DNA from: Bacteroidales bacterium
GTDB lineage: Bacteria; Bacteroidota; Bacteroidia; Bacteroidales; UBA932
Assembly: GCA_017428245.1 (NCBI GenBank)
Contig: JAFRRF010000001.1
Coordinates: 1 to 64,000, forward strand
Direction: 5' to 3'
DNA length: 64,000 nucleotides
The notes beneath the pieces are model-generated. The model had not been told where the DNA came from, ran no database searches, and saw nothing but the letters and a program-made list of their open reading frames with translations. Positions 12,088-37,029 of this stretch are shown one piece after another. Numbering within the stretch: the stretch's first letter is position 1; every line of letters begins with the position of its first letter. Position numbers and translations under genes: made by a program.

Positions 12088-12093
12088 CGCCCG

Positions 12094-13953: not shown

Positions 13954-13962
13954 ATTTTTTAT

Positions 13963-16547: not shown

Positions 16548-16579
16548 AATCCTAATTTTGTCCCAAAAATACATAAAAA

Positions 16580-19769: not shown

Positions 19770-19802
19770 ATATCATATATCTGATTGCTGCTTGTTACAT
19801 AT

Positions 19803-20789
19803 CTAGTTAAGCAAGCAACGACCAATATGGGGAAAAAGCCATAAGGAAAGTGAAAACACTTTTTCAAGTAATGGAATGGACCGTGACATAACATACTCCC
19901 ATACTGTTCGCTTTCTAAAAGGTAGGCATATCTCCATAAAAGAAGAATAATACTCTGTCCCCAACAAACCTGCCCGATGTGTCGTCATAACTCTATATAT
20001 TTTCCTTAAATAAGCGACACGAAAAAGATCTTTACTATTTGGAACAGTATACTGTTCAAGAGTTATTCTGTGAGCAAAATTCAAAAAAACATCCTCTTTA
20101 GTAATACTAGACGAAATACTAGTTTTCCTATAATAATACTGATATAAATCTTTATTTATGAATACTGCCTTTCTCGTTCTCAGATAAACTCTATAATTAA
20201 AGCATACATCTTCCGCTATCTTGGCGAATTCAAATCGCAAATCTCCAATAATCTCCCTTGAATACAGTTTATTCCAAACAGGTTCAAAAGGATCCCCCCG
20301 GTCTATCGTCATTTTATTATCCATTATACGCTTTGCCAAATAGCGAGGCGTTAATACTTCGAAAAGAGCATGATGGGGAACCCCATCCTCTACTGAGCAT
20401 AGAACGTTCCCGTGTGTATCAATCCGCTTAAACCCGAATCCAACCCAGTCTACAGTGCCGGAAGATATGGCGCGATACGCCGTTTCCAGGGTCTCCGGCA
20501 CAATAGAATCATCACTATCCACAAATAAGATGTATTCCCCATTTGCCTTGTCCAGACCTGTATTCCGAGCAAAACCCAACCCTGCATTCTTTTGATGGAT
20601 AACACAAAAGCGGTTATCTATCTGACAAAACTCATCGCAGATCGCCCCAGACCCATCCGTGGATCCGTCATCGATAATGATTACCTCAATATCAGAATAT
20701 GTCTGCGCTGCAATGCTCTCAAGACACCTGCCAACATAATCTTTGACATTATAAACCGGAACAATAATGCTAATTAAACTATTATTCAC
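19803..20789 (-). CDS. Glycosyltransferase family 2
   Basis: A 328-residue GT-A enzyme. It opens with LISIIVPVYNVKDYVGRCLE, has VIIIDDGSTDGSGAICDEF and the nucleotide-sugar metal motif ANGEYILFVDSDDSIVPETL (DSDD). The second half is divergent and ends in a hydrophobic stretch (IPLLEKVFSLSLWLFPHIG). It is similar in layout to the neighbouring GT2 gene at 20835-21869, suggesting an older duplication. The gene is AT-rich. Confidence 0.9.
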   Translation of the reverse strand: MNNSLISIIVPVYNVKDYVGRCLESIAAQTYSDIEVIIIDDGSTDGSGAICDEFCQIDNRFCVIHQKNAGLGFARNTGLDKANGEYILFVDSDDSIVPETLETAYRAISSGTVDWVGFGFKRIDTHGNVLCSVEDGVPHHALFEVLTPRYLAKRIMDNKMTIDRGDPFEPVWNKLYSREIIGDLRFEFAKIAEDVCFNYRVYLRTRKAVFINKDLYQYYYRKTSISSSITKEDVFLNFAHRITLEQYTVPNSKDLFRVAYLRKIYRVMTTHRAGLLGTEYYSSFMEICLPFRKRTVWEYVMSRSIPLLEKVFSLSLWLFPHIGRCLLN

Positions 20790-20834
20790 TTCGTACGCTA
20801 AATAATCAGATAAAAAAACTCGACGATAGTGTTT

Positions 20835-21869
20835 TCAAAACTCTCGGCAGAATTTGATGACTTTCCATAAACAATTATAAAAGAGACGCCCCCTCCTTGA
20901 ACTTGCTTGGTTATCAATAAGTCTTAAAACGGAATAGCCCAAATACGGAAAATGGAAAACAGCAAGAGATGCCATTTTTATCCTGATAGGAATCCTCTTT
21001 TCTTTTAAATAATCATGAATGGTGTTCTTATAATATTCTTTACATTCTTTGAATATGGCGTTTTTGTTTTCGCCCTTCAAACTACGAGCTTTCGACGTCG
21101 TCATTTTTTTGAACAGCTGATCAAGAAGAATACCTCGATACGGCTCTTTATCTGGAGGCAAAGCAACATAATTCATATAATATATTTTTGGCCAAATACT
21201 ATAGTACTGCGCCTCCTTTGAAATCTGCGAATCGTGAGAATACCAGTGATAAAAAATCCCCTCTGTGCAAATAAAACTCTTGCAATGAATAAATGATTGT
21301 ATATTATAATCCAAATCCTGGGCGATAGGAAACGGTCTTGCCCGGACCCCCGCCAAGCTTTGCACCCTAAATAACTTATTCCAAATATTTGGATAGGGGT
21401 AGTCATAGTGAGCCAATAATCTCTTAAATAAGTCCTCTGAGGATCGTTCAATCCATTGGCATTCTATCTGGCCACAGCAATCCTCAAAACGACTAATTGT
21501 TTTCTTTCTTCCGACAATAGCCATATCGTATCCGTCTTTGCTGGTAATAGCGCGATACATCTGCCGTATCATATCGAAATGGAAATAATCATCAGAATCT
21601 GAGAAAAAAAGGAAATTTCCTCGCGCGACATCCTGACCGGTATTACGTGCCGCCCAAAGGCCTTTATTGGGCTGATGTATAACCTTGGCTCGAGAATCTT
21701 TGGCTGCATACTCATCGCAAATCCGGCCAGAAGAATCCGTTGAACCGTCGTCCACTAATAATATCTCCAAATTACGGTATGTTTGGTTGGCTATGCTATC
21801 CAAGCATTTGGGAAGATACTCCTCAACATTATATACCGGAACAATTACCGAAATCAATTCTTCTTCCAT
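20835..21869 (-). CDS. Glycosyltransferase family 2
   Basis: A 344-residue GT-A enzyme opening ELISVIVPVYNVEEYLPKCL, then ILLVDDGSTDSSGRICDEYA and NFLFFSDSDDYFHFDMIRQM. It is a near relative in architecture of the next downstream GT2. Its first 16 bp overlap the end of the GT2 gene at 21854. Features of the second half, such as YPYPNIWNKLFRVQSLAGVR, recur among capsule GT2 enzymes. The donor sugar is unknown. Confidence 0.9.
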   Translation of the reverse strand: MEEELISVIVPVYNVEEYLPKCLDSIANQTYRNLEILLVDDGSTDSSGRICDEYAAKDSRAKVIHQPNKGLWAARNTGQDVARGNFLFFSDSDDYFHFDMIRQMYRAITSKDGYDMAIVGRKKTISRFEDCCGQIECQWIERSSEDLFKRLLAHYDYPYPNIWNKLFRVQSLAGVRARPFPIAQDLDYNIQSFIHCKSFICTEGIFYHWYSHDSQISKEAQYYSIWPKIYYMNYVALPPDKEPYRGILLDQLFKKMTTSKARSLKGENKNAIFKECKEYYKNTIHDYLKEKRIPIRIKMASLAVFHFPYLGYSVLRLIDNQASSRRGRLFYNCLWKVIKFCREF

Positions 21870-22654
21870 AGGGCGATACCTGATTCAACTGCATAATGAA
21901 ATGCACAGCGAATACGGCTAAAGAATGTGGTGTGTTTGAGGGACATTTCCAGACGGCGCATCTTGGCAAAACTGCGAGGACTGTCTAGATACTGTCTCCA
22001 TATATTGCGGGACATACTGTCATCCATTTGGTATTGCACGAGACAAAAACACTCGTTGACAACAAGTAAGGGGTATTTATCCGTTACCTGCAGCAGCATA
22101 TACACAGGATTGAAATTCTTCTCTCCCGGGAAGCCTTCCATCGGAGCAACCTCTCGCATCAGATTAGTGCGCATCACCTGCTTGGAGTCGCCACGATGAA
22201 TGCTCTTTGCGTAAAGTTCTGGAAAAAAACACTCGGCCATCCCTTGAGGAAAAAGGCCTCCTATTGGCTTCCCTGTCTCCATATCATAGTCCAAACCCAA
22301 GAGGCCACAATATTTGTCTGAACCCTTTCTTCCCCATATCAATATGATCTTCTCCACTGCATCAGCCGGCATTGCATCGTCGCTGTCGATACAAACATTG
22401 AGTTCCGTCTCTATTGTAAGATATGCAACATTATACCCTGTATAGAGGCCGCCATTTTCTTTGTAGATATAACGAATGGGGATGATGTTTTCTTCTTTCC
22501 ACTGAGCTACAAGGTCGTTTGTCCCATCGGTAGAGCCATCATCAATGACCAGCCACTCAAAATCATCGGAAGTCTGGGAGCACAGACTTTGATAAAGCCG
22601 CGGCAACGTATGGGCGCGATTATAAGTCGGAGTGAAAACGGTCAGAGTCTTCAT
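21854..22654 (-). CDS. Glycosyltransferase family 2
   Basis: A 266-residue GT-A enzyme. It starts MKTLTVFTPTYNRAHTLPRL and has LVIDDGSTDGTNDLVAQWK and the DxD motif ETELNVCIDSDDAMPADAVE. A later block, GLLGLDYDMETGKPIGGLFP, is typical of the WfgS/WfeV-type subgroup often found in O-antigen loci. I chose the start at 22654, 5 bp after the EpsG stop; the longer frame begins inside the EpsG coding region. Confidence 0.88.
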   Translation of the reverse strand: MKTLTVFTPTYNRAHTLPRLYQSLCSQTSDDFEWLVIDDGSTDGTNDLVAQWKEENIIPIRYIYKENGGLYTGYNVAYLTIETELNVCIDSDDAMPADAVEKIILIWGRKGSDKYCGLLGLDYDMETGKPIGGLFPQGMAECFFPELYAKSIHRGDSKQVMRTNLMREVAPMEGFPGEKNFNPVYMLLQVTDKYPLLVVNECFCLVQYQMDDSMSRNIWRQYLDSPRSFAKMRRLEMSLKHTTFFSRIRCAFHYAVESGIALWKKN

Positions 22655-22659
22655 TTCTT

Positions 22660-23751
22660 TTACCAAAACACGAACCACATAAAAACAGAGAAAGCCGCAT
22701 AAGCTATCAACACCCATCCGGCAAACCGATCCTGGTCCTCTCGGACAGGAAGATTAACAAGCGGATAGGCAATGATGATGGGGCACATAAACCACGAAAG
22801 ATAGGCAAAGCGGTTGCTGAACGCAGAACGGATGACCATAATCCAAAATGCGTTGCATAGGCAGTATGTAACACATAAAGCATTATACCAATTGTCGGTG
22901 ATACCCTTACGAGTACATACATACCACGCCATCACAACCGGCATAGTGCTATACAGCAAAAAATCCCAGCGGAAACCCTCCTTCGAGAACTCCGAAAAAT
23001 CTTTAATAGTCTGTGTATATTGCGTCATCCTGTCATCGAACCCCAATGAAGCAAAGAAATTTGTCGCCGCATCGCCAAAAACCAACGACAGAAAGATTGA
23101 AGCAACCCAGAAGGCGATGGCATAACGCACATCTTTTAAAAGGAAAATGCCCACAAGAATTGCAATGATCGGGAGCATCGCACTCCGATGGATTCCCACT
23201 GCGAGCAAAGCGAACAAAGCACCGGGAATCCACTTATCATCCATCAAGAAACTGAAGGCCAACAGAACTAAATGACAGGCCAGCCCATTCCGAAGCCCAT
23301 TGGTGGCAAATGTAAAGAACATCAACGATGTCAAGACAAATAACATCCCGAGCATCGGATCGGAAGGCATCAAACGTTTTACCGCCCAAAAGGCAGAAAG
23401 GACATAACCAGCTGCCACAATCGTAAAAAACGTATGAATGCTGAAACCCGCGGCTTTGCATCCATTCATCAACCATTGCCAGATCCACTCACTACTCCAA
23501 TCCATCGAAATATGGCGGGCATCCATCTTGGAATACTCCAGAGCATAATTGACCATATCCCCAAAAGCGCTACTGACAGGACGAAAACCGATCCAAAAAG
23601 TCAGTGCGATACAAAGTAGTAACGGTAAAACAATAGAACTGCCCTCGAGTTGATGACGATTGTCCGGCGAAGAGATACGAATTCCTCCGACGATAATAGC
23701 AATAGCTGCCATTATTCCCGTAAAGAATTCCTGATAGTAAGAAGGATTCAT
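22660..23751 (-). CDS. EpsG-family putative polysaccharide polymerase
   Basis: A 363-residue membrane protein with about ten hydrophobic segments, first seen in FFTGIMAAIAIIVGGIRI. The EpsG family (Wzy-like) signature is approximated by FRPVSSAFGDMVNYALEYSK (the aspartate-rich loop of these proteins) and FATNGLRNGLACHLVLLAFS. Such proteins are thought to join repeat units on the periplasmic side. I take the start MNPSYYQEF at 23751, which gives an ATGA overlap with the GT32 gene; the frame from 23838 would begin inside that gene. No Wzx flippase gene is evident in the locus. Confidence 0.82.
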   Translation of the reverse strand: MNPSYYQEFFTGIMAAIAIIVGGIRISSPDNRHQLEGSSIVLPLLLCIALTFWIGFRPVSSAFGDMVNYALEYSKMDARHISMDWSSEWIWQWLMNGCKAAGFSIHTFFTIVAAGYVLSAFWAVKRLMPSDPMLGMLFVLTSLMFFTFATNGLRNGLACHLVLLAFSFLMDDKWIPGALFALLAVGIHRSAMLPIIAILVGIFLLKDVRYAIAFWVASIFLSLVFGDAATNFFASLGFDDRMTQYTQTIKDFSEFSKEGFRWDFLLYSTMPVVMAWYVCTRKGITDNWYNALCVTYCLCNAFWIMVIRSAFSNRFAYLSWFMCPIIIAYPLVNLPVREDQDRFAGWVLIAYAAFSVFMWFVFW

Positions 23752-24452
23752 CTCTTCTTCCTGATTATTCTCCGCAGGAGCCGCTTGACAAAAACCTTCC
23801 AGGCCGCTTCGGGCTTCATCCATGATTTGGCGTACCAATGAATTGAGTGGGTGTTTTCCGTTTTGCGCAATCTGCCCGTCAAATCATCGAAAGGATTGAA
23901 CCATTCAGGAGGATAAACATCGATTCCGGCGATATGCTCTATCGTTCCATCGCCTTTAAGACCAGCAGCAACGAGTAGTTCCGTTACCATCGGAATCATT
24001 GTATATGGATTAAGTGTTCCGTCTTCCCGTGAGAAAGACATAGTTTCGTAGCGAGAAAGTATCTCTTGATAAAGCGGCATTCCAGGTTCTGCGGCAAGTC
24101 CCAGGCCCGGCGCAACAGCGATACGATCATTATTCTCAATCTCAAGACCCATAAGCGGACCTCTTGCCAGCACATCGTCCATTGGCCGGATCAATTCGAC
24201 ATCCGTATCGAAATACACTCCACCGTATTTGTACAATACCCAAAAACGGGCATAATCGCTAACAAAAGCATATTTCCCTGCAGCATAGGCGTCAGCCGTA
24301 TAGGGCAGTATGTTGACATCAAAGTTGCCTTCATTCCACTCCTTTATTTCGTAGTCCGGCAAATACTTCCGCCAACTTGCAATGCACTTCTCGGCCAATG
24401 GCGGAAGCGGATTTCGCCCGAACCAGCAATAATGAATGAACTTGGGAATCAA
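23748..24452 (-). CDS. Glycosyltransferase family 32 (capsular polysaccharide synthesis type)
   Basis: A 234-residue enzyme. It begins IPKFIHYCWFGRNPLPPLAE, a hallmark of GT32, and contains KYAFVSDYARFWVLYKYGGV followed by YFDTDVELIRPMDDV, whose DxD motif binds the metal and nucleotide sugar. Family members transfer mannose, galactose or related sugars. It overlaps the upstream GT4 gene by 4 bp and has a relative in the same locus at 27767-28543. Confidence 0.88.
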   Translation of the reverse strand: MIPKFIHYCWFGRNPLPPLAEKCIASWRKYLPDYEIKEWNEGNFDVNILPYTADAYAAGKYAFVSDYARFWVLYKYGGVYFDTDVELIRPMDDVLARGPLMGLEIENNDRIAVAPGLGLAAEPGMPLYQEILSRYETMSFSREDGTLNPYTMIPMVTELLVAAGLKGDGTIEHIAGIDVYPPEWFNPFDDLTGRLRKTENTHSIHWYAKSWMKPEAAWKVFVKRLLRRIIRKKR

Positions 24453-25657
24453 AGTAATGAAAACAATTGTTCAGTCTTAGCCTCGTTCCCATAATCGTGA
24501 GCGAGACAAAAAGCGGATAAATAAGATTGTTTTTCCCGATCGGAGACTAACACCGCAATTCCTTTGGCGCAACCCTCATTGTCCAGCGGAACGATTACTC
24601 CGTCCTTCCTGTCTCGAACTTGACTATGAGCCGTAGGATAATTGGTAATAACCACCGGCTTTCCCAGGATTTGCGCTTCGCGGACAGTAACGGCATTGCC
24701 TTCATAGCGAGATGGCTGGACATAAATGTCACAAGCTCTCATATATGGATAGGGATTCTCCTTTTTCCCGAGTAGAATAACATGGTCTTCCATTCCAGCT
24801 TCCTGGATCTTTCGGCGAATCAAAGACTCGTCACCACCATAACCGATAATGTACCATCGCACAGAGAACCCATCATTCAAGATTCTCCTACAGATGTCTG
24901 GCACATTGTCATAGTTTTTAGCTGCCGAAAAACGACCAACGGAGAGAAGATTGACAACTCCTTGTTCACGCGGCATTTCCTTCTCTATCTCCTCGGAAGA
25001 TATAATCTCTGATCGTTCTCTTACCAACTTCGGAGACAATACATTTGGAATCTCCACAATCTTATGCTCCAACAAAGGAAACACCTTAAGAAAAGCCCTC
25101 GTCACATCAGGAGAAATTGAAACTATCTTATCGTAACCGGTCCAAACAGGGAGTTCCAAGGCCTGATTAACATCAATCTGGGAATAATCGGTATGAATCC
25201 AAGCAGCTTTTTTCTTGGCCCGGACTCTCTCCATCACAATATTATGTGGCGTTAGGAAACTGACGGCCAGATCGTATTCTTTTTGAGGTAAAATGGGCGG
25301 AAGCAGAGAAACGAGATTCTTCATCACGTATGAAAAGATGGCACTTCCATCTTTAGGGTGTTCTCGCTTCGCGTATCGAGCAAACTGCCACTTGGCCCTT
25401 AGTCGTGCCAGCACAATCCGCCAATAACCGTCTCCCAGCACTTCTTTCAAAGGGCGTTCAATCTGAGCATATTCGGGTATCTCAGGAAGTATATGGACTT
25501 GTGGCGGAATCATTTTCATCAACTCCCCTCGGTGATTATAAACGAACAAGTCTACATCTACACGGCTGAAATCGAGTGCCCCCAGCAGTCCGATTAAACT
25601 CCGCTCGGCACCGCCGAGCTCGAGGTAATGGATGGCAAAAAGAAGGTGGGATTTCAT
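24449..25657 (-). CDS. Glycosyltransferase family 4
   Basis: A 402-residue GT-B enzyme. It opens KSHLLFAIHYLELGGAERSL and has AWIHTDYSQIDVNQAL, VNLLSVGRFSAAKNYDN and the E-rich donor motif YVQPSRYEGNAVTVREAQIL. Related in arrangement and phrasing to the GT4 at 26618-27766 (both share LDFS/LDYS-VDVDL and a nearby MIPPQV). The two GT4 genes flank the pyruvyl-transferase gene. It overlaps that gene by 4 bp. Confidence 0.9.
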   Translation of the reverse strand: MKSHLLFAIHYLELGGAERSLIGLLGALDFSRVDVDLFVYNHRGELMKMIPPQVHILPEIPEYAQIERPLKEVLGDGYWRIVLARLRAKWQFARYAKREHPKDGSAIFSYVMKNLVSLLPPILPQKEYDLAVSFLTPHNIVMERVRAKKKAAWIHTDYSQIDVNQALELPVWTGYDKIVSISPDVTRAFLKVFPLLEHKIVEIPNVLSPKLVRERSEIISSEEIEKEMPREQGVVNLLSVGRFSAAKNYDNVPDICRRILNDGFSVRWYIIGYGGDESLIRRKIQEAGMEDHVILLGKKENPYPYMRACDIYVQPSRYEGNAVTVREAQILGKPVVITNYPTAHSQVRDRKDGVIVPLDNEGCAKGIAVLVSDREKQSYLSAFCLAHDYGNEAKTEQLFSLL

Positions 25658-26616
25658 TGGGGAAGCCGGTTAATAAGGTCTTCAATCCTTTCATTCAAGC
25701 CGTCCGGTCTAGGGACATACACATACTCCCGTTGAAAAATGGCGCAAAACGCGATGGCATGGAAGGAATTGGTCACAACGCAATCAGCGTTCTTGATTAA
25801 AGAGAGGAACGATTCGGGACCTGCTATCGTGAAATTTTTGTCGGCATAATGTTGCTTAAAAGGACTGATGGAAAAGATTTGCAGATTTCGACTTTTTGCG
25901 ACACGCTTGGCTTTCTGTCTGAGTGCCGAGTCTGAGAAAAAGTCATAGACCAACAGATAGCGCTCGCCATCTCCTGTTCCATCATAAAGCTCCATCCATT
26001 TTTCGGCCGATAGCAAAAAAACCGGGTCTTCTTCTCTAACCCCATCGGTGATGCCTAGTTGCTTTAGAATAGTAAGTCCAGAGTCCTCTCTAACGGATAC
26101 CTTGTCAAATCGGGAGAGGTTTGTCCGAACAAAATCCTCAGTTCCTGATTGGAGCTCCGTAGTAGCAAAACTGGCCGCATAACTCTCGCGCCGAATCGTT
26201 TTGGGCCCGAAATCCAGATAGAAAGCCGGATCTGTCCCATTCGGGAAGAACGTATTCCAAATCTGATCACTTCCTGCAATATAAACATCAGCACAAGGGG
26301 GTTCTTCACGTAAATCTTGAATGCTATGATAAACCCTTTCCGTTAAAGAAATATGCTTATTTGAAAAAGCAACAAAGTTCTTATGTCTTTTCTTGGAGCG
26401 AATCCGTTGCGGAAAACGAAGAAAGAATATTGCCCATTCCTTAATTGATAACCCTGGCCAGTAGAAAACACGAAATGAGGGATCCATATAGGGAGGGCGG
26501 TAATCGATGACGGAAACATTGTTTCCTTGCTCCTGAAGATACTTGGCCAACGCATAGGTCTGCAAGCGGGCCCCATGGTTATCCGTATTACTGCAGGTGA
26601 TAGTGCAGATCTTCAT
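25654..26616 (-). CDS. Polysaccharide pyruvyl transferase
   Basis: A 320-residue protein of the polysaccharide pyruvyl transferase family (CsaB/WcaK type). The N-terminal TCSNTDNHGARLQTYALAKY, the ADVYIAGSDQIWNTFFPNG loop, YAASFATTEL and the C-terminal VVTNSFHAIAFCAIFQREYV are family marks. The enzyme adds a pyruvate ketal from phosphoenolpyruvate to a sugar, giving a negative charge to the glycan. It lies between two GT4 genes, each flanked outside by a GT32 gene. A gap of 1 bp separates it from the upstream GT4. Confidence 0.88.
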   Translation of the reverse strand: MKICTITCSNTDNHGARLQTYALAKYLQEQGNNVSVIDYRPPYMDPSFRVFYWPGLSIKEWAIFFLRFPQRIRSKKRHKNFVAFSNKHISLTERVYHSIQDLREEPPCADVYIAGSDQIWNTFFPNGTDPAFYLDFGPKTIRRESYAASFATTELQSGTEDFVRTNLSRFDKVSVREDSGLTILKQLGITDGVREEDPVFLLSAEKWMELYDGTGDGERYLLVYDFFSDSALRQKAKRVAKSRNLQIFSISPFKQHYADKNFTIAGPESFLSLIKNADCVVTNSFHAIAFCAIFQREYVYVPRPDGLNERIEDLINRLPQ

Positions 26617-26617
26617 C

Positions 26618-27766
26618 TTAATCTTCCAACAAGAGTTGGTTTACTTTTTCGCTTTCCATTTCTGCCGTTCGGTTTTCTTCTTTTCGCGTATTCTCAATCA
26701 GCCGGTTTTTCAAAGCTGGATTCTCAATGATGCTCAAGATCTTGTCAGCGACGGATTCCGGCGTCATTTCGGCAATCAAGCCGTTTTCTCCGTCGATTAT
26801 CTGATCATATGCTGAAGGAAAGTTTGTGGTGACAATGGGCTTGTGAAGTATTTTGGCTTCGCTAAGCGTAAGGCCGAAGCCCTCAAAAGAAGATGTTTGA
26901 ACATAGATATCACATGCCTTAAAAAAAGGATACGGATTTGACTGCAAACCGGCCAGGACAATGTGATTCTTCAGCCCCTTATGATTTATCAAGGTTTCTA
27001 TGTTCTTGCGTTCGGCCCCTTCTCCAACAAAGGTCCAAACAAAATTCAAACCTTTATCTTGCAAAAGACTGGCTGTCTCAACGGCAAGAGGGTAGTCTTT
27101 TGGGGGAACGAGACGTCCAACAGTCAAAAACTTTAGCGGTGCCGAGAGGGGGAAAGATTCCAGTGGCATATCCGCCATTTTTTGAATTAGACCCGCATTA
27201 AGGATGTCTTTAATAACCCGAATACTTTTAGGAGAGACAAATCCCGCATCGGAAAGCATGTTAGGGAGGACGTCGGAAACGGTACAGACTCCGGTCATCC
27301 GGTCATAGAATGGACGGTTGAAATTTGGGCGATAACCAGCCTTCGTCAAGTCTGTATTAATCCATGCCCACTTTTTTGTTGCGCGCACCTTCTCTGCGAC
27401 ATAATAGGTGGGGAACCCCTGCTGATAAGCGATTGCGACATCATAGCTCTTGGAAGGTGCTGGGTGAACTGATGACATTATCTGCCAGTAAGTTTCTGCC
27501 CCATGCCGAGTTATTCCTAAACAATGTTGCTTTCTTGTTTCCAAGAATAAAAAGCCATGACAACATCTGGATCGCCAGGAAGTCACCTTCGGAACAGGAA
27601 TGGTAGACACTTGGGGCGGAATCATCTGTTCAAAGAGACCACCTTTTTTCACAATCATCAAATCCACATCCATTGAAGAGTAATCTAGCAAAGGAAGGAG
27701 CGAAACGAGGCTTTTTTCAGCCCCTCCGCAATCTAAGGAATCGATTACGAATAAGACCTTTTTCAT
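26618..27766 (-). CDS. Glycosyltransferase family 4
   Basis: A 382-residue GT-B enzyme opening KKVLFVIDSLDCGGAEKSLV, with KWAWINTDLTKAGYRPNFN, LKFLTVGRLVPPKDYPLAVE and the donor-site YVQTSSFEGFGLTLSEAKIL (E-x7-E with a Lys where many relatives have Ala). It is a relative of the GT4 at 24449-25657. The end contains a charged tail. It begins directly next to the stop of the upstream GT32. Confidence 0.9.
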   Translation of the reverse strand: MKKVLFVIDSLDCGGAEKSLVSLLPLLDYSSMDVDLMIVKKGGLFEQMIPPQVSTIPVPKVTSWRSRCCHGFLFLETRKQHCLGITRHGAETYWQIMSSVHPAPSKSYDVAIAYQQGFPTYYVAEKVRATKKWAWINTDLTKAGYRPNFNRPFYDRMTGVCTVSDVLPNMLSDAGFVSPKSIRVIKDILNAGLIQKMADMPLESFPLSAPLKFLTVGRLVPPKDYPLAVETASLLQDKGLNFVWTFVGEGAERKNIETLINHKGLKNHIVLAGLQSNPYPFFKACDIYVQTSSFEGFGLTLSEAKILHKPIVTTNFPSAYDQIIDGENGLIAEMTPESVADKILSIIENPALKNRLIENTRKEENRTAEMESEKVNQLLLED

Positions 27767-28543
27767 TCAGTCCGTCTTACGGAGGACATAATGATAACGG
27801 CGAAGAAGCCGTTCAAGCAGGGCAACCATTCTCCATTCTATTTTATAGCGCAAATTGTAAACGGGTTCTGCTGATTTTCGATCCCGCCATGATCCTAAAG
27901 CAAGGTGTCGACAAACGGTTTCGTCCCTGACTGTTAGAGCATCAAAATAGTGGCTCGGGTATATAACGAGCCCATCTTTACACAACTGGACTTTTTGAGA
28001 GGAAGGCCTTTCATCATACCCGTACAATCGGGCGATTTCTGACTGAACATATGGTAGTAATACAGGAGAGTATCTCAATGACATAGGCAGACGTTCATTC
28101 TGAGATTGCACAAAATGTCGACCTTCGAAGTAGTCTAAGCAATCCTTTACGAAAGGATGTCCCTTTTCTGCCCCGAAGCAATGCGATGTCAGATATTGAG
28201 AGGAAAGTCGACCTTCGAAATGAATTGAGAATTCCTTACCGATGAACGCGGCGTTTTGAAGCATCGGCGTAAGTGACCGGAACAGTTGGACGTCCGTATC
28301 CATGTAAACACCTCCGTATTGATATAAGGCGTATAGCCTTACATAATCGGCAGCGAAGGCCCATTTTCTTTTTGCGAGAGCCTCTTCCACATAATCTGAA
28401 TCCAACACATTGAGAGAAGCCACATCCCATAGGCGGAAAGAGAAGTCGGGAAGAAAAGCTTTCCAACTCGCTAAGCAAGTTTCAACTTCAGAGGGAAAAG
28501 GTTCTCCGGAGAACCAGCAATAATGTATTATCTTAGGGATCAT
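27767..28543 (-). CDS. Glycosyltransferase family 32 (capsular polysaccharide synthesis type)
   Basis: A 258-residue enzyme. Start at MIPKIIHYCWFSGEPFPSEV (28543) gives a 4-bp overlap with the preceding GT2, and the longer frame from 28576 is discarded. The core KWAFAADYVRLYALYQYGGV and YMDTDVQLFRSLTPML carries the DxD motif. It is a relative of the GT32 at 23748-24452; both lie next to related GT4 genes in mirror order. The C-terminus is basic (LLERLLRRYHYVLRKT) and may touch the membrane. Confidence 0.88.
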   Translation of the reverse strand: MIPKIIHYCWFSGEPFPSEVETCLASWKAFLPDFSFRLWDVASLNVLDSDYVEEALAKRKWAFAADYVRLYALYQYGGVYMDTDVQLFRSLTPMLQNAAFIGKEFSIHFEGRLSSQYLTSHCFGAEKGHPFVKDCLDYFEGRHFVQSQNERLPMSLRYSPVLLPYVQSEIARLYGYDERPSSQKVQLCKDGLVIYPSHYFDALTVRDETVCRHLALGSWRDRKSAEPVYNLRYKIEWRMVALLERLLRRYHYVLRKTD

Positions 28544-29499
28544 TGTTTCTTGCGCAAAGAATAATACAACCTCCAAAGGTGGTAATTTTGGAAAATAAAT
28601 GCCGTTTTCATTCGTTCTATGAAACCGACCTTAGTAAACTTCCAAATGTCTCGATGAGATTCCCGGTTAAAATTGAACCACTCACGATCGTTATCGAAAA
28701 CAGCGCGATAATCCTGTTTATTGCCAAAACTAAGGTAGTTCAGCATCGTGCGATAGGTTTTTGTTGTTCCGGCACCTAGGATATTGCCTATCATGGAGAT
28801 GTTGCTTGTCTGTCTTTCTAGCATCGCCTTTGAACGATTTGGAGCGGTTGTGATAGAGTTCGGCCTGATACGATAGTGATACAAACAATCAGGGGTAGCG
28901 GCAATACTTCGGGCGAAATAATAGACCTGGATTATCACAAACAAATCCGTTCCATGATCAGGCGGTATCACTCTATCAAAGAAATCCAAAGACAGAGCTG
29001 TCTTGCGAATCAAATGTCGCCAAAAAGCAACAGCCATTCGGTCTTTCTGATGAAATCGCCTAAGACATTCTTGCGGAGTTGAAGAACGGCGATAATTTGT
29101 CTTTTTTTGACAATCATTATGTTCGATAAAGCAATTATTCACTACAATATCGGCATTTTGATCGCACGCCGTCAGATACATTTTCTCAAACATATCTAGT
29201 TCACACCTGTCATCTGGATCACAGAATCCAACATATTCCCCAACCGAATGTTCAACCCCCGATCTAATGGCCCAATAATAGCCTTTATTCCTTTCGTGAT
29301 TAATTATCTTTACCATCGGTTTCCTATGGGGGTATCTGTCAAGAACAGATTTCAGTATGTCTATTGATCTGTCAGGGGTACCGTCATTGATAAAGATGAA
29401 CTCCATATCCTCCAGTGTCTGCTCCATAAGAGAGCGTACGCTGCACTCGATATACTGCTCAACCTTATAGACAGGGATTATTACAGAGACCTTGGGCAA
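28540..29499 (-). CDS. Glycosyltransferase family 2
   Basis: A 319-residue GT-A enzyme. The core is PKVSVIIPVYKVEQYIECSV, FIFINDGTPDRSIDIL and GEYVGFCDPDDRCELDMFEK, where the usual DSDD is DPDD. I set the start at a TTG (29499), which makes the protein begin exactly where GT2 proteins usually do (as Met-Pro-Lys-Val-Ser-Val) and puts it 4 bp after the upstream stop. The only in-frame ATG (29565) would overlap the upstream gene by 62 bp and add 22 residues with no GT2 match. The TTG start is my inference. Confidence 0.82.
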   Translation of the reverse strand: MPKVSVIIPVYKVEQYIECSVRSLMEQTLEDMEFIFINDGTPDRSIDILKSVLDRYPHRKPMVKIINHERNKGYYWAIRSGVEHSVGEYVGFCDPDDRCELDMFEKMYLTACDQNADIVVNNCFIEHNDCQKKTNYRRSSTPQECLRRFHQKDRMAVAFWRHLIRKTALSLDFFDRVIPPDHGTDLFVIIQVYYFARSIAATPDCLYHYRIRPNSITTAPNRSKAMLERQTSNISMIGNILGAGTTKTYRTMLNYLSFGNKQDYRAVFDNDREWFNFNRESHRDIWKFTKVGFIERMKTAFIFQNYHLWRLYYSLRKKQ

Positions 29500-29503
29500 A
29501 GTG

Positions 29504-30475
29504 TTAAAAATGCAAATAGTTAAATGGAACTCTACCGACTGACGCCGCAAACCGGGGGAAGCCACTGTTATACATACAACCAGTCTGCAGAAGCGTGATT
29601 CGGCAAGACTGTTTTAGCAAGAATAAATCCTCAAATGGTTTAATCTGCACATCGATGTCCGCATCCTTATCTCTTGTGAAATCCATGTGATCTCTCTTTC
29701 CTTTGACAACATATACAAAAGGGAAGCGGCTGATTCTTTCTATAAAAGACGAGCTATCAGAGGTTACAAAAATGTGCTTGGAGGAAAAATAGCCATCTTC
29801 ATACAACTCGAGAATTTTATTGATGCAACGATTTATCAAAGCATCCCTTTCCTTAAGCCCCAAAGTGGGATGGTTACCCTCCGCCAAATCCCCCAGCAAG
29901 CTTTGGAAACGGAGCACGACAGACTCATAATTCTTTTCCCAGGACTTTGTTATCCCAGCAACTTTTGATGAGAGAAGAGGAGATGGTTTGAAAAGTTCGC
30001 GGAAAAGACTAAAGAATTCTTTTTCAGCAAAGCAAGAGTTGCCATAAACATGAATTTGTTTCCAATGCTTTTTCGGAAGGCATTCATCCATTATGGATAA
30101 TTGCCAGTTATAGGATCGATGCGACGGCATACTACTCGAAAGATAAATATTAACATCAAGTGAATCAATGACAGAATAGGAAATCTGAGAATTATCTATG
30201 CACCAGTCATATTCATTTGGCAGTAGAAACAGGGACAAATCGCAAGGATAAATGTAGTGTAATTTGAAATTCAACTGATGCTCTTTACAATAACTATATA
30301 TTGAAAGAATGTGCCTAAAACGATCTGCTAACCCTCCATGGTGCTGAACGCCATCAATCATGACGACGACAGCTCCATAGAAACGAGGTATAGTAAGGTA
30401 ATGAAGCCGGTAATAATCCCAACGGGTTTTCACTAAATGGTGATTGTAACTTTTCTGCATGCTTAAAACGGACAA
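29504..30475 (-). CDS. Putative glycosyltransferase, fucosyltransferase-like
   Basis: A 323-residue protein I cannot place firmly. The N-terminal HHGGLADRFRHILSIYSYCK resembles the donor-binding GGLxxR region of fucosyltransferases of the GT11/GT23 and NodZ kind, and KHIFVTSDSSSFIERISRF and LLKQSCRITLLQTGCMYNSG fit the later GDP-binding loops. No signal peptide. It lies between Wzt and the GT2 genes in the AT-rich part of the locus. Fucosylation would be reasonable but is an inference from weak similarity. A 41-bp gap separates it from the ABC ATPase gene. Confidence 0.5.
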   Translation of the reverse strand: MSVLSMQKSYNHHLVKTRWDYYRLHYLTIPRFYGAVVVMIDGVQHHGGLADRFRHILSIYSYCKEHQLNFKLHYIYPCDLSLFLLPNEYDWCIDNSQISYSVIDSLDVNIYLSSSMPSHRSYNWQLSIMDECLPKKHWKQIHVYGNSCFAEKEFFSLFRELFKPSPLLSSKVAGITKSWEKNYESVVLRFQSLLGDLAEGNHPTLGLKERDALINRCINKILELYEDGYFSSKHIFVTSDSSSFIERISRFPFVYVVKGKRDHMDFTRDKDADIDVQIKPFEDLFLLKQSCRITLLQTGCMYNSGFPRFAASVGRVPFNYLHF

Positions 30476-30516
30476 AGAAAAAACCTCGTCCCAGAATCGT
30501 TATGAGGACATACGAA

Positions 30517-31785
30517 TTATTCTGAACACAAGCCTATGAAACCTTCTTCATTTAGTCGTAACGGGTGGGCAAAAGCATCACAGAACCCGTTAATGTTGAG
30601 CGTAAGACAATTAATTGCTACAAAGAAATTTTGGATATAGGGTTGGTGAAGCATTAAATCAACAAGGTACTCCCCGTCTGCCAAGTACTTAGGAAGCCGG
30701 ACATGCTTAATAATCTCAAAAGTTCCAGTCGGAAGATCAAGAAGTTTACCCGTATATTGCCCTTCGATAAGCGCCGCCATCGGCGTTCCATCCATTTTCT
30801 TGATGATGAACTTCACTTCGCACTTCATTGCTTCTTGGGTAGTTCCCCGAATTACGATGTCCAGGAATTCCTGTCTCGGTTTAAGTGAGGTGCGGTTAGC
30901 TGGAGTGCCGTTGATGAGGATTTCTTTTAAGTCGAGATACGACTTCTTTTTCTGAATGCTGTCTATGATTAGTCCGTCTTCTGCCAGGGAAGAACCATTG
31001 ATATAATAATCCACCGCCTCATTCACCCCTCCATCAAACGCCATCCCCCCATCCTCCAACACTACCCCCCGCTGACACAAACTCCTCACCGCCGCCATAT
31101 TATGACTGACAAACAACACCGTCCGGCCCTCCCCACGCGAAACATCCTGCATCTTCCCAATCGCCTTCTTCTGAAATTCTGCATCTCCCACAGCCAAGAC
31201 CTCATCGACCACGAGAATCTCCGGTTCCAAAAAGGCAGCAACAGCGAAACCCAAACGCACAGTCATGCCAGAAGAGTATCGCTTAACCGGAGTGTCAAGG
31301 TAGCGCTCGACGCCGGCGAAATCGACGATAGCGTCGAGTTTGCGCGAGATTTCGGCGCGGGTCATGCCCATGATGGCGCCGTTCATATAGATGTTTTCGC
31401 GGCCGGTCATTTCCTGGTGGAAGCCGGTGCCGACTTCGAGCAGCGAGGCGATGCGGCCCTTTGCGCGGATAACGCCTGTTGTCGGGGCAGTGACGCGCGA
31501 GAGGAGTTTGAGCAAGGTACTCTTGCCAGCGCCGTTCTTCCCGATGATTCCCACAACCTCGCCTTGCTTCACTTCGAAGTTGATGTCGCGCAGGGCCCAC
31601 ACGAAATCGGAGTTGCCGCGATGCGCCCGGTCGTTTGTCTCGCCGATGCGCAGATACGGGTCTTCCTTGCGCAGGATCTTCGTCTGCCACCAGCGGTTCA
31701 GGTCGTGCGACAGCGTACCTGTGCCCACTGAACCCAAGTGGTAGAGTTTCCCGACATTTTCAAACTGAATGGCGATATCCGACAT
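30517..31785 (-). CDS. wzt: Polysaccharide ABC transporter ATP-binding protein, Wzt type
   Basis: A 422-residue protein that powers export of a finished glycan with the Wzm permease. The nucleotide-binding domain (about residues 1-250) has Walker A IIGKNGAGKSTLLKLLS, signature YSSGMTVRLGFAVAAFL, Walker B LVVDEVLAVGDAEF and the His switch FVSHNMAAV. The rest (about 262-422) is a carbohydrate-recognition-type C-terminal domain. Start is MSDIAIQFEN at 31785, sharing one base with the ATPase stop. The N-terminal part is GC-rich like the backbone, whereas the C-terminal part is AT-rich like the glycosyltransferase genes; the switch lies near 31000, at the domain border. Confidence 0.92.
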   Translation of the reverse strand: MSDIAIQFENVGKLYHLGSVGTGTLSHDLNRWWQTKILRKEDPYLRIGETNDRAHRGNSDFVWALRDINFEVKQGEVVGIIGKNGAGKSTLLKLLSRVTAPTTGVIRAKGRIASLLEVGTGFHQEMTGRENIYMNGAIMGMTRAEISRKLDAIVDFAGVERYLDTPVKRYSSGMTVRLGFAVAAFLEPEILVVDEVLAVGDAEFQKKAIGKMQDVSRGEGRTVLFVSHNMAAVRSLCQRGVVLEDGGMAFDGGVNEAVDYYINGSSLAEDGLIIDSIQKKKSYLDLKEILINGTPANRTSLKPRQEFLDIVIRGTTQEAMKCEVKFIIKKMDGTPMAALIEGQYTGKLLDLPTGTFEIIKHVRLPKYLADGEYLVDLMLHQPYIQNFFVAINCLTLNINGFCDAFAHPLRLNEEGFIGLCSE

Positions 31786-32912: not shown

Positions 32913-32930
32913 CTTGTTACATTTTTGATA

Positions 32931-32964
32931 CAAAATTAAGCATCTTTTTTGTTATAACAAAAAA
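32931..32964 (-). promoter_or_regulatory. Promoter of the ATPase gene overlapping a 20-bp palindrome
   Basis: On the minus strand TTTG (32961-32958), a 19-bp spacer and TAATTTTG (32938-32931) give a textbook Bacteroidota promoter. Its -33 side is embedded in a perfect 20-bp palindrome, T6-GTTATAAC-A6 (32945-32964). The palindrome could be an operator, or a terminator-like hairpin after the wzm stop. The ATG lies 18 bp after the -7 element. Confidence 0.75.
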
Positions 32965-32971
32965 TGTACAT

Positions 32972-33814
32972 CTAAACCGTATCCATAAAATTGCGCTCCA
33001 CGCGGTTGAACACGATGAGCGAGATGAACAGCATCACCAGCATAAACACCGTGCTATAGAGCAGTCCGCCCCACGACAGGGTGCCGCAGCCCAGGCATCC
33101 GTACTTGAATGCCTCGAAAATCGGCGTCAGCGGATTGAGTTCCAAAGCGGTGCGGATGCGGCCCGTCGCGGCGCTGAGCGGATAGATGATCGGCGTGGCA
33201 TACATAAAGAGCTGAAGCCCGAAGGCGACCAGGAACTTCAGGTCGCGATACTTGGAGGTGACCGAAGAGATGATCAGGCCCCAGGAGAGAGCGTGGAAAG
33301 CCAGCAACAGCACAAGGAACGGGAACAACAGCAACGCTGGGCGAATCGGCAACTGCACGCCCGCAATCCGGTAGCCGATATAGACCAGGATGAACAGCAC
33401 CAGCTGGATCAGCAACTTCAGCAGATTGGAGGTCAAGCCGGCCAACGGCACCACCAGCCGCGGGAAATAAACCTTCCCGAATACCGAAGCATTGTTGGTA
33501 AACACATTCGACGAAGCGTTGAACGAATCGCTGAAATAGTTCCAGAGCATAATGCCCGACAGGTAAAACAGCGGCTGAGGAGCGCCGTCAGTTGAAATCT
33601 TCGCCAGGCCACCGAACACGAACATATACATAATCGTGGTCAGCACCGGCTGGATCAGGAACCAGAGCGGTCCCAGAATTGTCTGCTTGTAGAACGTGAC
33701 AATATCGCGCCGGACATACATATACCACAAGTCGCGGTAGCGCCACAGACTCTTCAGATCGAGGTCCAGCAGCCGCTTCTTCGGTTTGATGACCAGAGTC
33801 CAGTCGTCCGTCAT
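32972..33814 (-). CDS. wzm: Polysaccharide ABC transporter permease, Wzm type
   Basis: A 280-residue inner-membrane protein of the ABC-2 type with six hydrophobic segments. It has the basic N-terminal helix LWYMYVRRDIVTFYKQTILG and the first transmembrane stretch PLWFLIQPVLTTIMYMFVFG, and ends in VFNRVERNFMDTV. It would form the channel for glycan export with the Wzt ATPase encoded downstream. The gene starts 3 bp after the stop of the tyrosine kinase gene. Its GC content is like that of the backbone. Confidence 0.92.
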   Translation of the reverse strand: MTDDWTLVIKPKKRLLDLDLKSLWRYRDLWYMYVRRDIVTFYKQTILGPLWFLIQPVLTTIMYMFVFGGLAKISTDGAPQPLFYLSGIMLWNYFSDSFNASSNVFTNNASVFGKVYFPRLVVPLAGLTSNLLKLLIQLVLFILVYIGYRIAGVQLPIRPALLLFPFLVLLLAFHALSWGLIISSVTSKYRDLKFLVAFGLQLFMYATPIIYPLSAATGRIRTALELNPLTPIFEAFKYGCLGCGTLSWGGLLYSTVFMLVMLFISLIVFNRVERNFMDTV

Positions 33815-33817
33815 CGC

Positions 33818-36205
33818 TTATTTGGCGTAGCCGTATTTCTGGTAACCGTACTTGTGATAGCCGTATTTATGATAGCCATAGTGACCCGAGGCCAAGTCGG
33901 TGCCATTGAGAATAATGGTCAGGTTGGCATAGCGCTTCTCGTCGTACCACTGCTGGATTTCAGGCAGCAGGGAGCGCTCCAGCATCTTGGCGCGAATCAC
34001 GAAGAGGGTCAAGTCGACATACCGGTTGATAATCGCGGAATCGGCTACCATCTCCACGGGCGGACAGTCGATGAACACATAATCGTATTGTTCGCGAACC
34101 GTTTCAATCAACTGCGCAAAGCGAGGGGTGTAGAGCAGCTCCGTAGGATTGGGCGGCAGCGTGCCGCACGGCAGGACATCCACTTTGCCAAGCGGAACGA
34201 TCATACTTTGCACATCGTCCTTCTTGCCGCTCAGGTAGCCCGAGATGCCGTCGGAGGGACTGCCCACATAGCTGGAAAGCGAACCTTTGCGCAAGTCCAG
34301 ATCGATGGCCAGCACTTTCTTGTCCTTGAGGCCGACCGCCGTCGAAAGATTGGCCGAAATGAAAGTCTTGCCGCTGCCGGGTGTGAGCGAAGTCAGCATC
34401 ACGACCTTATGCGCGGCATCGAAGCCCAGCAGGAATTCCAGGTTGGATCGGACCACGCGGAAGGCTTCGTTCATGATGTCGCGGTTTTTCTCTGCAACGA
34501 GTACCTCCGGAGCCTGTGTCGTCTTGGTTTGCTTTCGCCAGAACCATTTCTTCTTTCCTCCGGCCAGCGGAATCTCTCCTGCAAACGGGACGGTGAGCTG
34601 TTTCAGGTCTTCACGACCCTGCACGGAGGTCTTGAACATTTCCCGCAGCGCCAGAACGGCGGCCGGAATGGCCAAGCCCAGCAGCAGGGCGTACAAATAG
34701 ATGGTCTTGGCCACCGGCTCTACGGGCTTCCAGCTGCCGTGAGCCGGCTCGATGAGCTGCGTGTTATAGGCAGTGAATGCCTGCGAGAGCTCGTTCTCCT
34801 CACGCTTCTGGAGCAGGAACAGGTAGAGTTCCTCCTTTACTTTCTGCTGCCGTTCCACCGAGAGCAGGTACTTCTCCTGTTGCGGGGCGGTAGCTACACG
34901 ACTGACGGCCTGCCTGCGCGTTGCCTGCAAGGCTCGCTGCTGGTTTTGGAGCAGCGCGATCTCTCCGTTCAGCGCTTCGGTAATCGAGGCGCGGAGCACA
35001 GCAAGTTGTTTGTTCAGATCGGCCACGAGCGGGTTTCGGGCAGAGGTGTAAGCCAGGTGGTTGTTGCGCTGCAGGAGCAACGTGTTGTATTCCGCGATTT
35101 TTTGTACGATAACCCCGTTCCCGATGCCCGAATTGAAAGGAATCTGCTGCGAATCATCCTGGTTGCTCACCACGTAGTCGTGCACCATACGCAGTTGGTG
35201 AATCTGGTGTTCCAGCGCGGCGCTCTGCTGTTCCGATTCATTGGCCTGCGACAGGGCCATGGCGCCGGACGAGCCCGGATCGAGGATCAGGTTCGACGAT
35301 TTATAGTCGGAGATATCCTGCTCCACGCTGCCCAGTTCCCGTTCAATGACGGCCAGTCGTTCGCGGATGAATTCGTTGGTGCTGACGATCTGGCGGTTGC
35401 GTTGCTGCATCCACTTCTCGTTATAGACCGTCACGAGCGTATTGAGCACATCCTCCGCGCGCTGGGGCGACACATCGCGGAAACGGATGTCGATAATCGA
35501 TGAGTTGTTGCCGCGCAATTGCGGGGAAATGCGGTTGCGCACATTGTTGGTCTTTGCATCAAAACCCGTGCGTGTGACGTTCAGCTTGCAATGGGCCCCC
35601 TCCTTATAGTAAGGCGAGCCTACAATTGCCAGCCGTCCGATCGGCGTATCAATCGTATCGCCGAGCCGTGCGCTATACCCGTCGAGAGACACCTCTTTCC
35701 CCCGCCGCAGGTCTGCCACCGTTACCGTACTGTCAGCCTGCAGCGCGACTATGAGCGAAGCGCTTTCCTGGTCGTTTATGTCGAGAAAATGCACCTGCAG
35801 GGGCAGGTCTCTGCCATACATCACCGGATCGTAGAACTTGCCGTCCCGGGAATAATCCACGTCGAGCTGCAACCGTTTTACCACTTCGTCGACCACGACG
35901 CCTGAATTGAGCATCAACAGTTCGTTGGTCAGATTGGTGGACGTCTGCGAAAGGCCCAGTTCCTTGAACATGGCTTCCGTGCCGGCCGATTCCTTGTTGT
36001 CTTTCACCATGATCGAGGCGGTACGCAAATACACGGGCCGCTTATGCACGGTCAAATAGAATCCGATGGCAAACGCCACAGCCAGCGAAATGGCGAACCA
36101 GTACCAGTTGCGCAGCACCAAAGCCAGGATGTCTTTGATCATGACGGCTGCGCTGCCACTTTTCCGCGCGGAAGGTGCCGTCGTACGAATGATTTCTCTG
36201 TCCAT
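33818..36205 (-). CDS. wzc: Polysaccharide co-polymerase with tyrosine autokinase domain, Wzc type
   Basis: A 795-residue inner-membrane protein. The Wzz-type N-terminal region begins at ALVLRNWYWFAISLAVAFAI (first membrane segment), with a long periplasmic coiled coil (about 240-460) and a second membrane segment near IYLYALLLGLAIPAAVLALR. The kinase domain has Walker A MLTSLTPGSGKTFISANLST, the VLAIDLDLRKG motif and YDYVFIDCPPVE. The tail carries eight tyrosines in GYHKY-type repeats (33830-33890) and is the usual site of autophosphorylation. It controls chain length and assembly with Wza, and the PHP phosphatase at the operon end would remove the phosphates. Confidence 0.95.
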   Translation of the reverse strand: MDREIIRTTAPSARKSGSAAVMIKDILALVLRNWYWFAISLAVAFAIGFYLTVHKRPVYLRTASIMVKDNKESAGTEAMFKELGLSQTSTNLTNELLMLNSGVVVDEVVKRLQLDVDYSRDGKFYDPVMYGRDLPLQVHFLDINDQESASLIVALQADSTVTVADLRRGKEVSLDGYSARLGDTIDTPIGRLAIVGSPYYKEGAHCKLNVTRTGFDAKTNNVRNRISPQLRGNNSSIIDIRFRDVSPQRAEDVLNTLVTVYNEKWMQQRNRQIVSTNEFIRERLAVIERELGSVEQDISDYKSSNLILDPGSSGAMALSQANESEQQSAALEHQIHQLRMVHDYVVSNQDDSQQIPFNSGIGNGVIVQKIAEYNTLLLQRNNHLAYTSARNPLVADLNKQLAVLRASITEALNGEIALLQNQQRALQATRRQAVSRVATAPQQEKYLLSVERQQKVKEELYLFLLQKREENELSQAFTAYNTQLIEPAHGSWKPVEPVAKTIYLYALLLGLAIPAAVLALREMFKTSVQGREDLKQLTVPFAGEIPLAGGKKKWFWRKQTKTTQAPEVLVAEKNRDIMNEAFRVVRSNLEFLLGFDAAHKVVMLTSLTPGSGKTFISANLSTAVGLKDKKVLAIDLDLRKGSLSSYVGSPSDGISGYLSGKKDDVQSMIVPLGKVDVLPCGTLPPNPTELLYTPRFAQLIETVREQYDYVFIDCPPVEMVADSAIINRYVDLTLFVIRAKMLERSLLPEIQQWYDEKRYANLTIILNGTDLASGHYGYHKYGYHKYGYQKYGYAK

Positions 36206-36213
36206 AACTTATC

Positions 36214-37029
36214 TTACTTTGCGGGGGCGGGCCAGAAATGGGCCACCAGCGTCACCAAAGAGACCAGCAGCGAGGGAATCGACACCCAGAACCCGAAAGA
36301 GTGGAAATAGGTGGCGTTCACGTCCGACTGATACTTGCGCTTCTTGTTGGGCTCAACGTAAATCAGATCGTTCTGCTGGATATAATAAACGGGGGAATTG
36401 TAAACGCTTTCGGTCTTGGTCAAGTCGATGGAATAAGCGTGCTGGGTTCCGTTCTCCGTACGGAGCACCAGCACATTCTCACGCTTGCCGTCGATGGTCA
36501 GGTCACCGGCCAGGGACAGCGCCTCGAGAATGGTGATCTGGTCGGTCGGAATCTCGATGCGGCCGCGGCGCCCCGTCTCTCCGAGTACCGAGAACGAAAG
36601 CCCGGCATACTCCACGATCACCGTAGGGTCGAGCAACAGTTTCGATTGAATCAGCTTGTATTTCACCAGATCGGCCACCTCCAGGCGGTTAAGGCCTTCC
36701 ACATGGACCGGGCCGAGCGTCGGCATCTCGATGTCGCCTTTCGGATCGACAGTATAATACCGGTATCCGCGGTCGTTTCCAGCACCATAGTTGTTATTGA
36801 CGGTCGTCAGGTTAAAGAGGTCGGCCAGCTCACGGTCCCGGCTGAAGACATTGATCTGCAAGCGGTCGCCCGGCTTCAGGGTGAGCTGCTGGGGTTCCTG
36901 CACCTGCATGGGCACATCGCGCTGAAGGTCTTGCAGATAGCTCACCTGTGCCGTCTCTGCGCAGGCGGCAAGCAAGAACATCGCCAGAACGCTTAAGCCA
37001 ATGGCGGACATTCGGCCAAGATTATTCAT
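36214..37029 (-). CDS. wza: Polysaccharide export outer-membrane lipoprotein, Wza type
   Basis: A 271-residue lipoprotein. The lipobox is LAMFLLAACAETAQ (Cys at about 23). A polysaccharide-export domain follows with LKPGDRLQINVFSRDRELAD and PKGDIEMPTLGPVHVEGL, then SLBB-type repeats including VLGETGRRGRIEIPTDQITI. The C-terminus contains a hydrophobic helix, FWVSIPSLLVSLVTLVAHFW, as in other Bacteroidota members. It forms the export pore in the outer membrane. It is followed after 8 bp by the kinase gene. Confidence 0.93.
   Translation of the reverse strand: MNNLGRMSAIGLSVLAMFLLAACAETAQVSYLQDLQRDVPMQVQEPQQLTLKPGDRLQINVFSRDRELADLFNLTTVNNNYGAGNDRGYRYYTVDPKGDIEMPTLGPVHVEGLNRLEVADLVKYKLIQSKLLLDPTVIVEYAGLSFSVLGETGRRGRIEIPTDQITILEALSLAGDLTIDGKRENVLVLRTENGTQHAYSIDLTKTESVYNSPVYYIQQNDLIYVEPNKKRKYQSDVNATYFHSFGFWVSIPSLLVSLVTLVAHFWPAPAK

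Follow-up and report, generated by a model that had tools for sequence, protein, structure and literature searches.

Wzm/Wzt-type O-antigen ABC transporters, with the A. aeolicus proteins (8dku, 7k2t) and the E. coli O8/O9a systems as prototypes, are the closest described relatives of the exporter considered here. A 2005 study by Cuthbertson, going by its title, reportedly assigned the determination of substrate specificity in E. coli O8/O9a to the C-terminal domain (CTD) of Wzt, and the two halves of the protein are therefore functionally separable. In the prototype, according to the available text of PMC9445017, the recognition domain (CBD) recognises the capped end of the chain, and the A. 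aeolicus CBD touches both the H-loop helix and a hinge helix comprising residues 226-240. Capsule and O-antigen clusters, as described in the available part of PMC6249986, are exchanged whole through conserved flanking genes. Here we present a wzt gene from the window, by which the whole analysed stretch of 64,000 nucleotides is meant. It is highly probable that its product is a natural two-part chimera, in which the ATPase half carries the history of the exporter genes and the recognition half was replaced by recombination, together with wzt-proximal biosynthesis genes. The features of the locus are collected in Table 1.

Table 1. Coordinates of the wzt gene, its parts and its neighbours in the window.
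Feature	Positions	Strand	Remarks
wzt	30517..31785	(-)	ATP-binding subunit of Wzm/Wzt-type polysaccharide ABC exporter (422 aa), carrying a C-terminal domain of the glycan-recognition type; ATG at 31785, stop side at 30517
Motor half (NBD), codons 1-252	31030..31785	(-)	History common with wzm/wzc/wza in the G032 comparison
Internal tract, codons 161-220	31126..31305	(-)	Higher synonymous divergence, lower GC3
Recombination junction, codons 252/253	31027..31032	(-)	Codon differences from G032; change point at 252
Exchanged half, residues 253-422: hinge helix, linker, beta-rich CTD	30520..31029	(-)	pS against G032, amino acid identity
Hinge helix, residues 254-263 in the model	30997..31026	(-)	Exchanged side; DSSP on the model and alignment to A. 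aeolicus
wzm, membrane subunit (ABC2_membrane)	32972..33814	(-)	Backbone side; Pfam 1.2e-18
Wzc-like chain-length/tyrosine kinase	33818..36205	(-)	Backbone side; 96.9% identical to G032
Wza-like export protein (Poly_export)	36214..37029	(-)	Backbone side; 97.4% identical to G032
wzt-proximal cassette: GT4, pyruvyl transferase, GT4, GT32-like (Gly_transf_sug), GT2, one protein without family match	24449..30475	(-)	
Distal cassette, CpsB-like to EpsG and GT32-like	11404..24452	(-)	Much kept in order in G034

The window protein contains an ABC ATPase domain with an ABC_tran match (7.8e-22 in Pfam), in which G82, N84-T90, S171-G173, D194-E195 and H228, which we take to be the motifs named Walker A, signature, Walker B and H-loop, are invariant in a 25-sequence alignment. 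Full-length A. aeolicus Wzt (8dku_A) aligns to residues 60-401 at 1.1e-60 by phmmer. The AlphaFold2 model from a 25-sequence alignment reached a mean pLDDT of 77.9 and a pTM of 0.50, with weak confidence in parts of the NBD and pLDDT mostly about 90 or above in the CTD block, and DSSP on the model gave a helix at 254-263, then a low-confidence linker, then a beta-rich CTD. The top solved matches of the model in Foldseek were A. aeolicus Wzt chains of full length, among them 8dku_A, best by E-value, and 7k2t_A with a TMt of 0.75. Taken together, the phmmer alignment, the beta-rich model and the fold matches identify a beta-sandwich CTD homologous to that of solved Wzt. Among curated families the CTD found no relevant match, the CTD alone giving one irrelevant weak hit in Pfam (E 0.017), and the best 25 of 183 NCBIfam matches of Wzt all lay within the NBD or slightly beyond it and under their cut-offs.

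The modelled helix 254-263 would correspond by position to the A. aeolicus hinge helix, provided that the chain numbering is native, and a putative docking helix lies on the motor side at about 231-237, where L236 and C237 are invariant in 25 sequences. A Wzm permease is encoded next to wzt, with one inserted ATPase gene between the two. Judged by domain order, homology and the neighbouring wzm, the window protein appears to be of the CBD-bearing kind, with cap binding putative, and by analogy its CTD probably recognises a glycan. In the cassette Pfam detected a pyruvyl transferase and a GNAT acetyltransferase; a methyltransferase, kinase or Kdo transferase was not found.

The inserted gene (31785-32933, minus strand; ATPase_2, 4.7e-10) encodes an AAA ATPase, and its TGA stop overlaps the wzt ATG. 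It is absent at the G032 site, where wzm and wzt nearly abut, and gave no hit in the other loci searched; two distant paralogues occur in the same genome, on contigs C56 and C39. Upstream of the ABC-exporter locus lies a gene for a UpxY-family antiterminator (37145-37684, minus strand; NF033644, 118.8 bits, cut-off 100). The ABC-transporter-type cluster also contains an EpsG-family protein (22660-23838, minus strand; PF14897, 7.4e-28), and EpsG-like proteins are usually tied to the other export route. A dispersed genus repeat of about 94 bases (window ~7363-7456), with identities of 77-95%, has many copies in G032 and G021; in G034 the copies cover 36-46 bases.

Wzt was searched for in 40 genomes of the genus, 13 of which have a completeness of 90% or more and a contamination of 5% or less, and matches with E<1e-100 were obtained in 5 of the 40, the window's own included (G000, G032, G034, G021 and G030). 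The comparison that decides the matter is with G032, whose Wzm is 99.6% identical to that of the window. Synonymous differences (pS, a Nei-Gojobori type count) between the two amount to 0.24 in wza, 0.30 in wzc and 0.20 in wzm. Within wzt, pS is 0.214 in codons 1-160 (dN 0.003), 0.488 in codons 161-220, 0.233 in codons 221-245 and 0.837 in codons 246-422, and the contrast between CTD and NBD is strong (Fisher p 2e-22). Codons differing from G032 number 7 of 32 in codons 221-252 and 15 of 16 in codons 253-268, which places the break at codon 252/253, near 31029. This position immediately precedes the hinge helix, so that the helix falls on the recognition side. Over residues 256-421 the CTDs of the window and G032 are 63% identical in amino acids; both are members of a single family and remain together in the CTD tree with 77% bootstrap support, and the pair therefore represents two diverged alleles, not unrelated domains. 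G021 and G034 retain the NBD, wzm, wzc and wza, with motor halves 92% and 90% identical to the window's in amino acids and Wzm identities of 90.7% and 90.0%, respectively, and the window CTD found no match, hence no detectable kinship, in the CTDs of either. In a wider survey that counted the window's own genome, the window's CTD family occurred in 8 of 398 genomes of the bacterial family and in 3 of 395 drawn from across the class, and the window NBD at E<=1e-70 was found in 22 of the 398. The motor half outside codons 161-220 thus has one history with wzm, wzc and wza; that of the recognition half is different, and the two meet at the domain border.

The small number of genus genomes with a Wzt match, many of the genomes being incomplete, would also be compatible with the entire exporter and cassette having arrived together and the domain break being secondary, and exchange of whole polysaccharide loci via conserved flanks is known from the available part of PMC6249986. 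Such a whole-locus transfer is nevertheless very unlikely, as the window and G034 have both flanks in common, wza, wzc and wzm are common to the window, G032, G034 and G021, and the identity to G032 drops inside wzt, not at a gene border.

The base composition of the gene is not smooth, and the change within wzt near 31000 expected from the preliminary description was borne out: GC falls from 0.596 at 31250-31749 to 0.430 at 30500-30999, with the drop centred near 31000-31100. GC3 is 0.72 in codons 1-250 and 0.47 afterwards, a difference of 0.249, and by tract it measures 0.78 (codons 1-160), 0.61 (161-250) and 0.47 (251-422). A single-step model of GC3 was stronger than 2000 of 2000 codon permutations, and its best change point, codon 162 (~31302), lies within the NBD; the 2-lnL range spans codons 158-249. 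The same description had set the junction exactly at the domain border and a backbone-like GC-rich side before it; the synonymous break at codon 252/253 agrees with the former, but the main step in composition, at codon 162, does not, and the NBD is indeed GC-rich, but the AT-richer AAA ATPase gene (GC 0.493) interrupts this side directly before wzm (0.553), with wzc at 0.565.

The displacement of the compositional step is accounted for by the internal tract, a second conflicting tract, because of which the composition drops in two steps and, taken alone, places the step at codon 162. Across codons 161-220 the synonymous history conflicts with that of both sides, and the amino acids are hardly altered. 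Compared with codons 1-160, pS in the tract is 0.488 against 0.214 for window and G032 (Fisher p 0.0009) and 0.95 against 0.51 for window and G034 (Fisher p 1.6e-8); between G021 and G034 the tract is the less diverged of the two (p 0.008), all three tests being on rounded counts. The sequence pattern is consistent with an exchange within the NBD that was either older or separate.

Comparison with 94 distinct Wzt genes shows that the GC3 split is typical of the family and not extreme, as the window ranked 25th: GC3 was higher in the NBD in 86 of the 94 (mean difference +0.162), and 25 reached the window's value. One could attribute this to translational selection, the conserved ATPase half favouring GC-ending codons without foreign DNA, and the breadth of the bias across the 86 genes, AT-rich Flavobacterium included, is in its favour. 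It is the least probable of the alternatives weighed here. None of 215 other long ORFs from the same 94 loci (at least 380 aa, on wzt's strand, with the first 250 codons compared with up to the next 170) reached 0.249, the mean differences being -0.021 for the 107 upstream and -0.005 for the 108 downstream; the split in Wzt tracks the difference in GC between upstream and downstream flanks (rho 0.59, n=89); and the synonymous break at codon 252 would be left unexplained.

The same break recurs widely. Among 28 close pairs of Wzt genes (NBD nucleotide identity at least 0.80, Fibrobacter and Flavobacterium pairs among them), identity breaks at codons 231-264 in 26, with a median of 244.5 over all 28. 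To the right of the break, identity is at most 0.46 in 19 of the 26 broken pairs and 0.51-0.67 in the other 7, including window and G032 with a CTD nucleotide identity of 0.61. In the Fibrobacter pair L044/L062, the NBD is 92% identical in nucleotides and the remainder 38%, with Wzm at 97.5%. In the 2 unbroken pairs, L136/L137 (NBD 0.80, CTD 0.84) and L071/L077 (0.98 and 0.98), NBD and CTD are similar to about the same degree.

Separate trees for the two halves, built for the 23 loci of the window's CTD family, were found to be incongruent and reject each other (AU p 1.2e-6 and 3.3e-6), the groups common to both being window/L118, L133/L135/L039/L134, L136/L137, L041/L042 and L051/L113. The CTDs of the 94 loci form 42 clusters, 14 of which have at least two members (66 loci); placing these 66 loci on the NBD tree takes 36 changes, where 13 would be the minimum, a count that the poor resolution of that tree (9 of 91 inner branches starred) may have inflated. 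As the loci were collected with the window's protein, its CTD family is over-sampled. Over 43 of the 94 loci, the stronger correlate of Wzm is the NBD (partial Mantel r 0.49, p 0.001), the value for the CTD being 0.13 (p 0.045).

A recognition half that merely evolves much faster than the ATPase half, by diversifying or relaxed selection and with no exchange, could be suspected from the far stronger constraint on NBD residues and from the window and G032 CTDs being one family that pairs in the CTD tree. We regard this account as improbable: the synonymous sites of the CTD are almost saturated in this pair, whereas those of the NBD, wzm, wzc and wza are not; the unbroken pairs L136/L137 and L071/L077 show that the CTD need not change faster; right-hand identity falls to 0.46 or less in 19 of the 26 broken pairs; and the tree topologies conflict and the third-position composition differs. 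The wzt mosaic is real, confirmed by the stepwise synonymous divergence inside the gene and the incongruent trees.

Whether the recognition domain travels with the cassette can be judged from the neighbourhood of wzt, beginning with G034, where the left flank and the exporter genes are the same. In a tblastn comparison with G034:C5, the distal cassette matches in order at 47-74% (11404-18669) and 65-79% (21854-24452), with 37-47% matches for the three genes between 18669 and 21854, and for the gene at 24449-25657 a counterpart of 65% identity lies at 37.3-38.5 kb. The genes at 25654-30475 gave no hit, or weak ones (24-31%, and one 37-residue stretch at 43%), in G034:C5 10000-62000. With the distal cassette kept and 25654-30475 lacking a counterpart there, it is chiefly the wzt-proximal block that differs along with the CTD. 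The G032 contig stops 2.8 kb past wzt, and the two genes present there are only weak glycosyltransferase matches to the window's, at 26-33%. An identity of 88% is seen at about 12-14 kb of the window.

Across loci, the comparison covered 111 pairs in which the NBDs reach an identity of 0.76 and 2.5 kb of downstream sequence is available, a gene being counted as shared at 55% identity or more. Such matched pairs told more than the Mantel tests given below, after which the thresholds were chosen. A downstream gene is shared by 5 of 5 pairs with a kept CTD, 3 of 18 intermediate pairs (window and G032 belong to this class) and 6 of 88 pairs with a replaced CTD (kept versus replaced, Fisher p 9e-6, the pairs not being independent). 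The kept class, defined by CTD similarity, comprises five pairs from 7 loci, with 4/4, 5/6, 1/3, 1/3 and 1/5 downstream genes in common. Upstream genes are shared by 5 of 5, 12 of 18 and 50 of 88 pairs, respectively, and mean upstream sharing also drops (0.80, 0.41, 0.25), which makes general relatedness a confounder. Per position, downstream genes of at least 40% identity are shared 9-16% of the time with alike CTDs (normalised score at least 0.4) versus 1-2% with unrelated CTDs, relatedness included. The partial Mantel correlation between CTD and cassette is weak (r 0.12, p 0.05) and that between NBD and cassette is no weaker (r 0.14, p 0.052), both over the 43 of 94 loci that have at least 4.5 kb of downstream sequence and, no further than 3.5 kb upstream, a wzm scoring above 100 bits. 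Several loci have a CTD family in common and zero downstream genes in common. The link between CTD and cassette holds at short range and then fades.

The first gene after wzt in the window (29504-30475) has no Pfam match and, by an overlap filter, is absent from the downstream gene sets in the pair, Mantel, per-position and CTD-linked-family counts; tblastn gave no hit for it in the 2.8 kb of G032 or in G034, and a homologue in G021 at 44%, below the 55% sharing limit. A search for capping enzymes compared the 23 loci of the window's CTD family, of which 21 have 5 kb or more downstream, with 59 other loci. Two small gene families near the start of the cassette were found only with the window's CTD family (5/21 vs 0/59 and 4/21 vs 0/59, uncorrected for multiple testing or relatedness). 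Their members are the first called gene after wzt in L043, L048, L049 and L050 (the family of five, its fifth member not listed) and in L039, L133, L134 and L135. No clear function emerged for them in Pfam, one member matching NTP_transf_5 just under the cut-off, and these two families directly after wzt are candidates for CTD-linked enzymes.

The preliminary description had proposed that the recognition domain is exchanged with the glycosyltransferase cassette and the motor kept. This is supported in the main, and both the uneven codon composition and the incongruent half-trees favour it. The retention of the motor stands, since its history is that of wzm, wzc and wza and that of the CTD differs, and the contrast between kept and replaced CTDs in downstream sharing speaks for a linked cassette; the proposal is limited by the distal part much kept in G034 and by the weak overall correlation. 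Joint exchange of the CTD with the neighbouring wzt-proximal biosynthesis genes is supported, not proven.

The chimera would have arisen by homologous recombination, for which the highly conserved 3' part of the NBD may have served as one anchor and a cassette gene in common, or the far flank, as the second. Such a swap would be tolerated because the H-loop helix (~231-237), the surface facing the recognition domain, is conserved and remains with the motor, and the hinge helix and linker would travel with the domain that uses them. The predicted outcome is an exporter fitted to a new glycan with no need for the motor to be rebuilt. On balance, we favour the view that the Wzt NBD/CBD border is a recurrent natural exchange joint in Bacteroidota and Fibrobacterota, with the conserved docking face of the motor as a universal socket and with hinge helix, linker, recognition domain and neighbouring biosynthesis genes as the swapped unit, so that recombination at one set position within a single gene redirects the exporter. 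If this is general, there would be many natural, presumably working chimeras showing where motor and recognition domain can be joined, and the CTD, more than the NBD, is predicted to mark the glycan made by its own locus. Typing on whole wzt sequences would blend two histories.

A literature search of titles and abstract openings, with the survey of Mann and others 2019 outside its coverage, returned no paper on natural recombination at the Wzt NBD/CBD border. The window case joins the specificity of the CTD with flank-mediated locus exchange at almost base resolution, the variable stretch starting at the domain joint of the exporter. Like the Wzm/Wzt prototypes, it has the same domain order, homology over NBD and CTD, a hinge helix between them and wzm neighbouring wzt; it differs in the AAA ATPase gene between wzm and wzt, in a CTD that by itself has no relevant Pfam hit and in cap binding that is only putative. 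The E. coli O8/O9a work concerns function, whereas the present analysis maps natural recombination joints in many genomes from sequence alone. As in the whole-locus exchange described in the available part of PMC6249986, a variable cassette, AT-rich in the window, lies between conserved flanks, but unlike in the cases described there, the variable stretch ends inside an exporter gene, at a domain border, and not in a flanking gene. Overall, the wzt mosaic adds a clearly resolved variant to a type of modular exporter that was already known.
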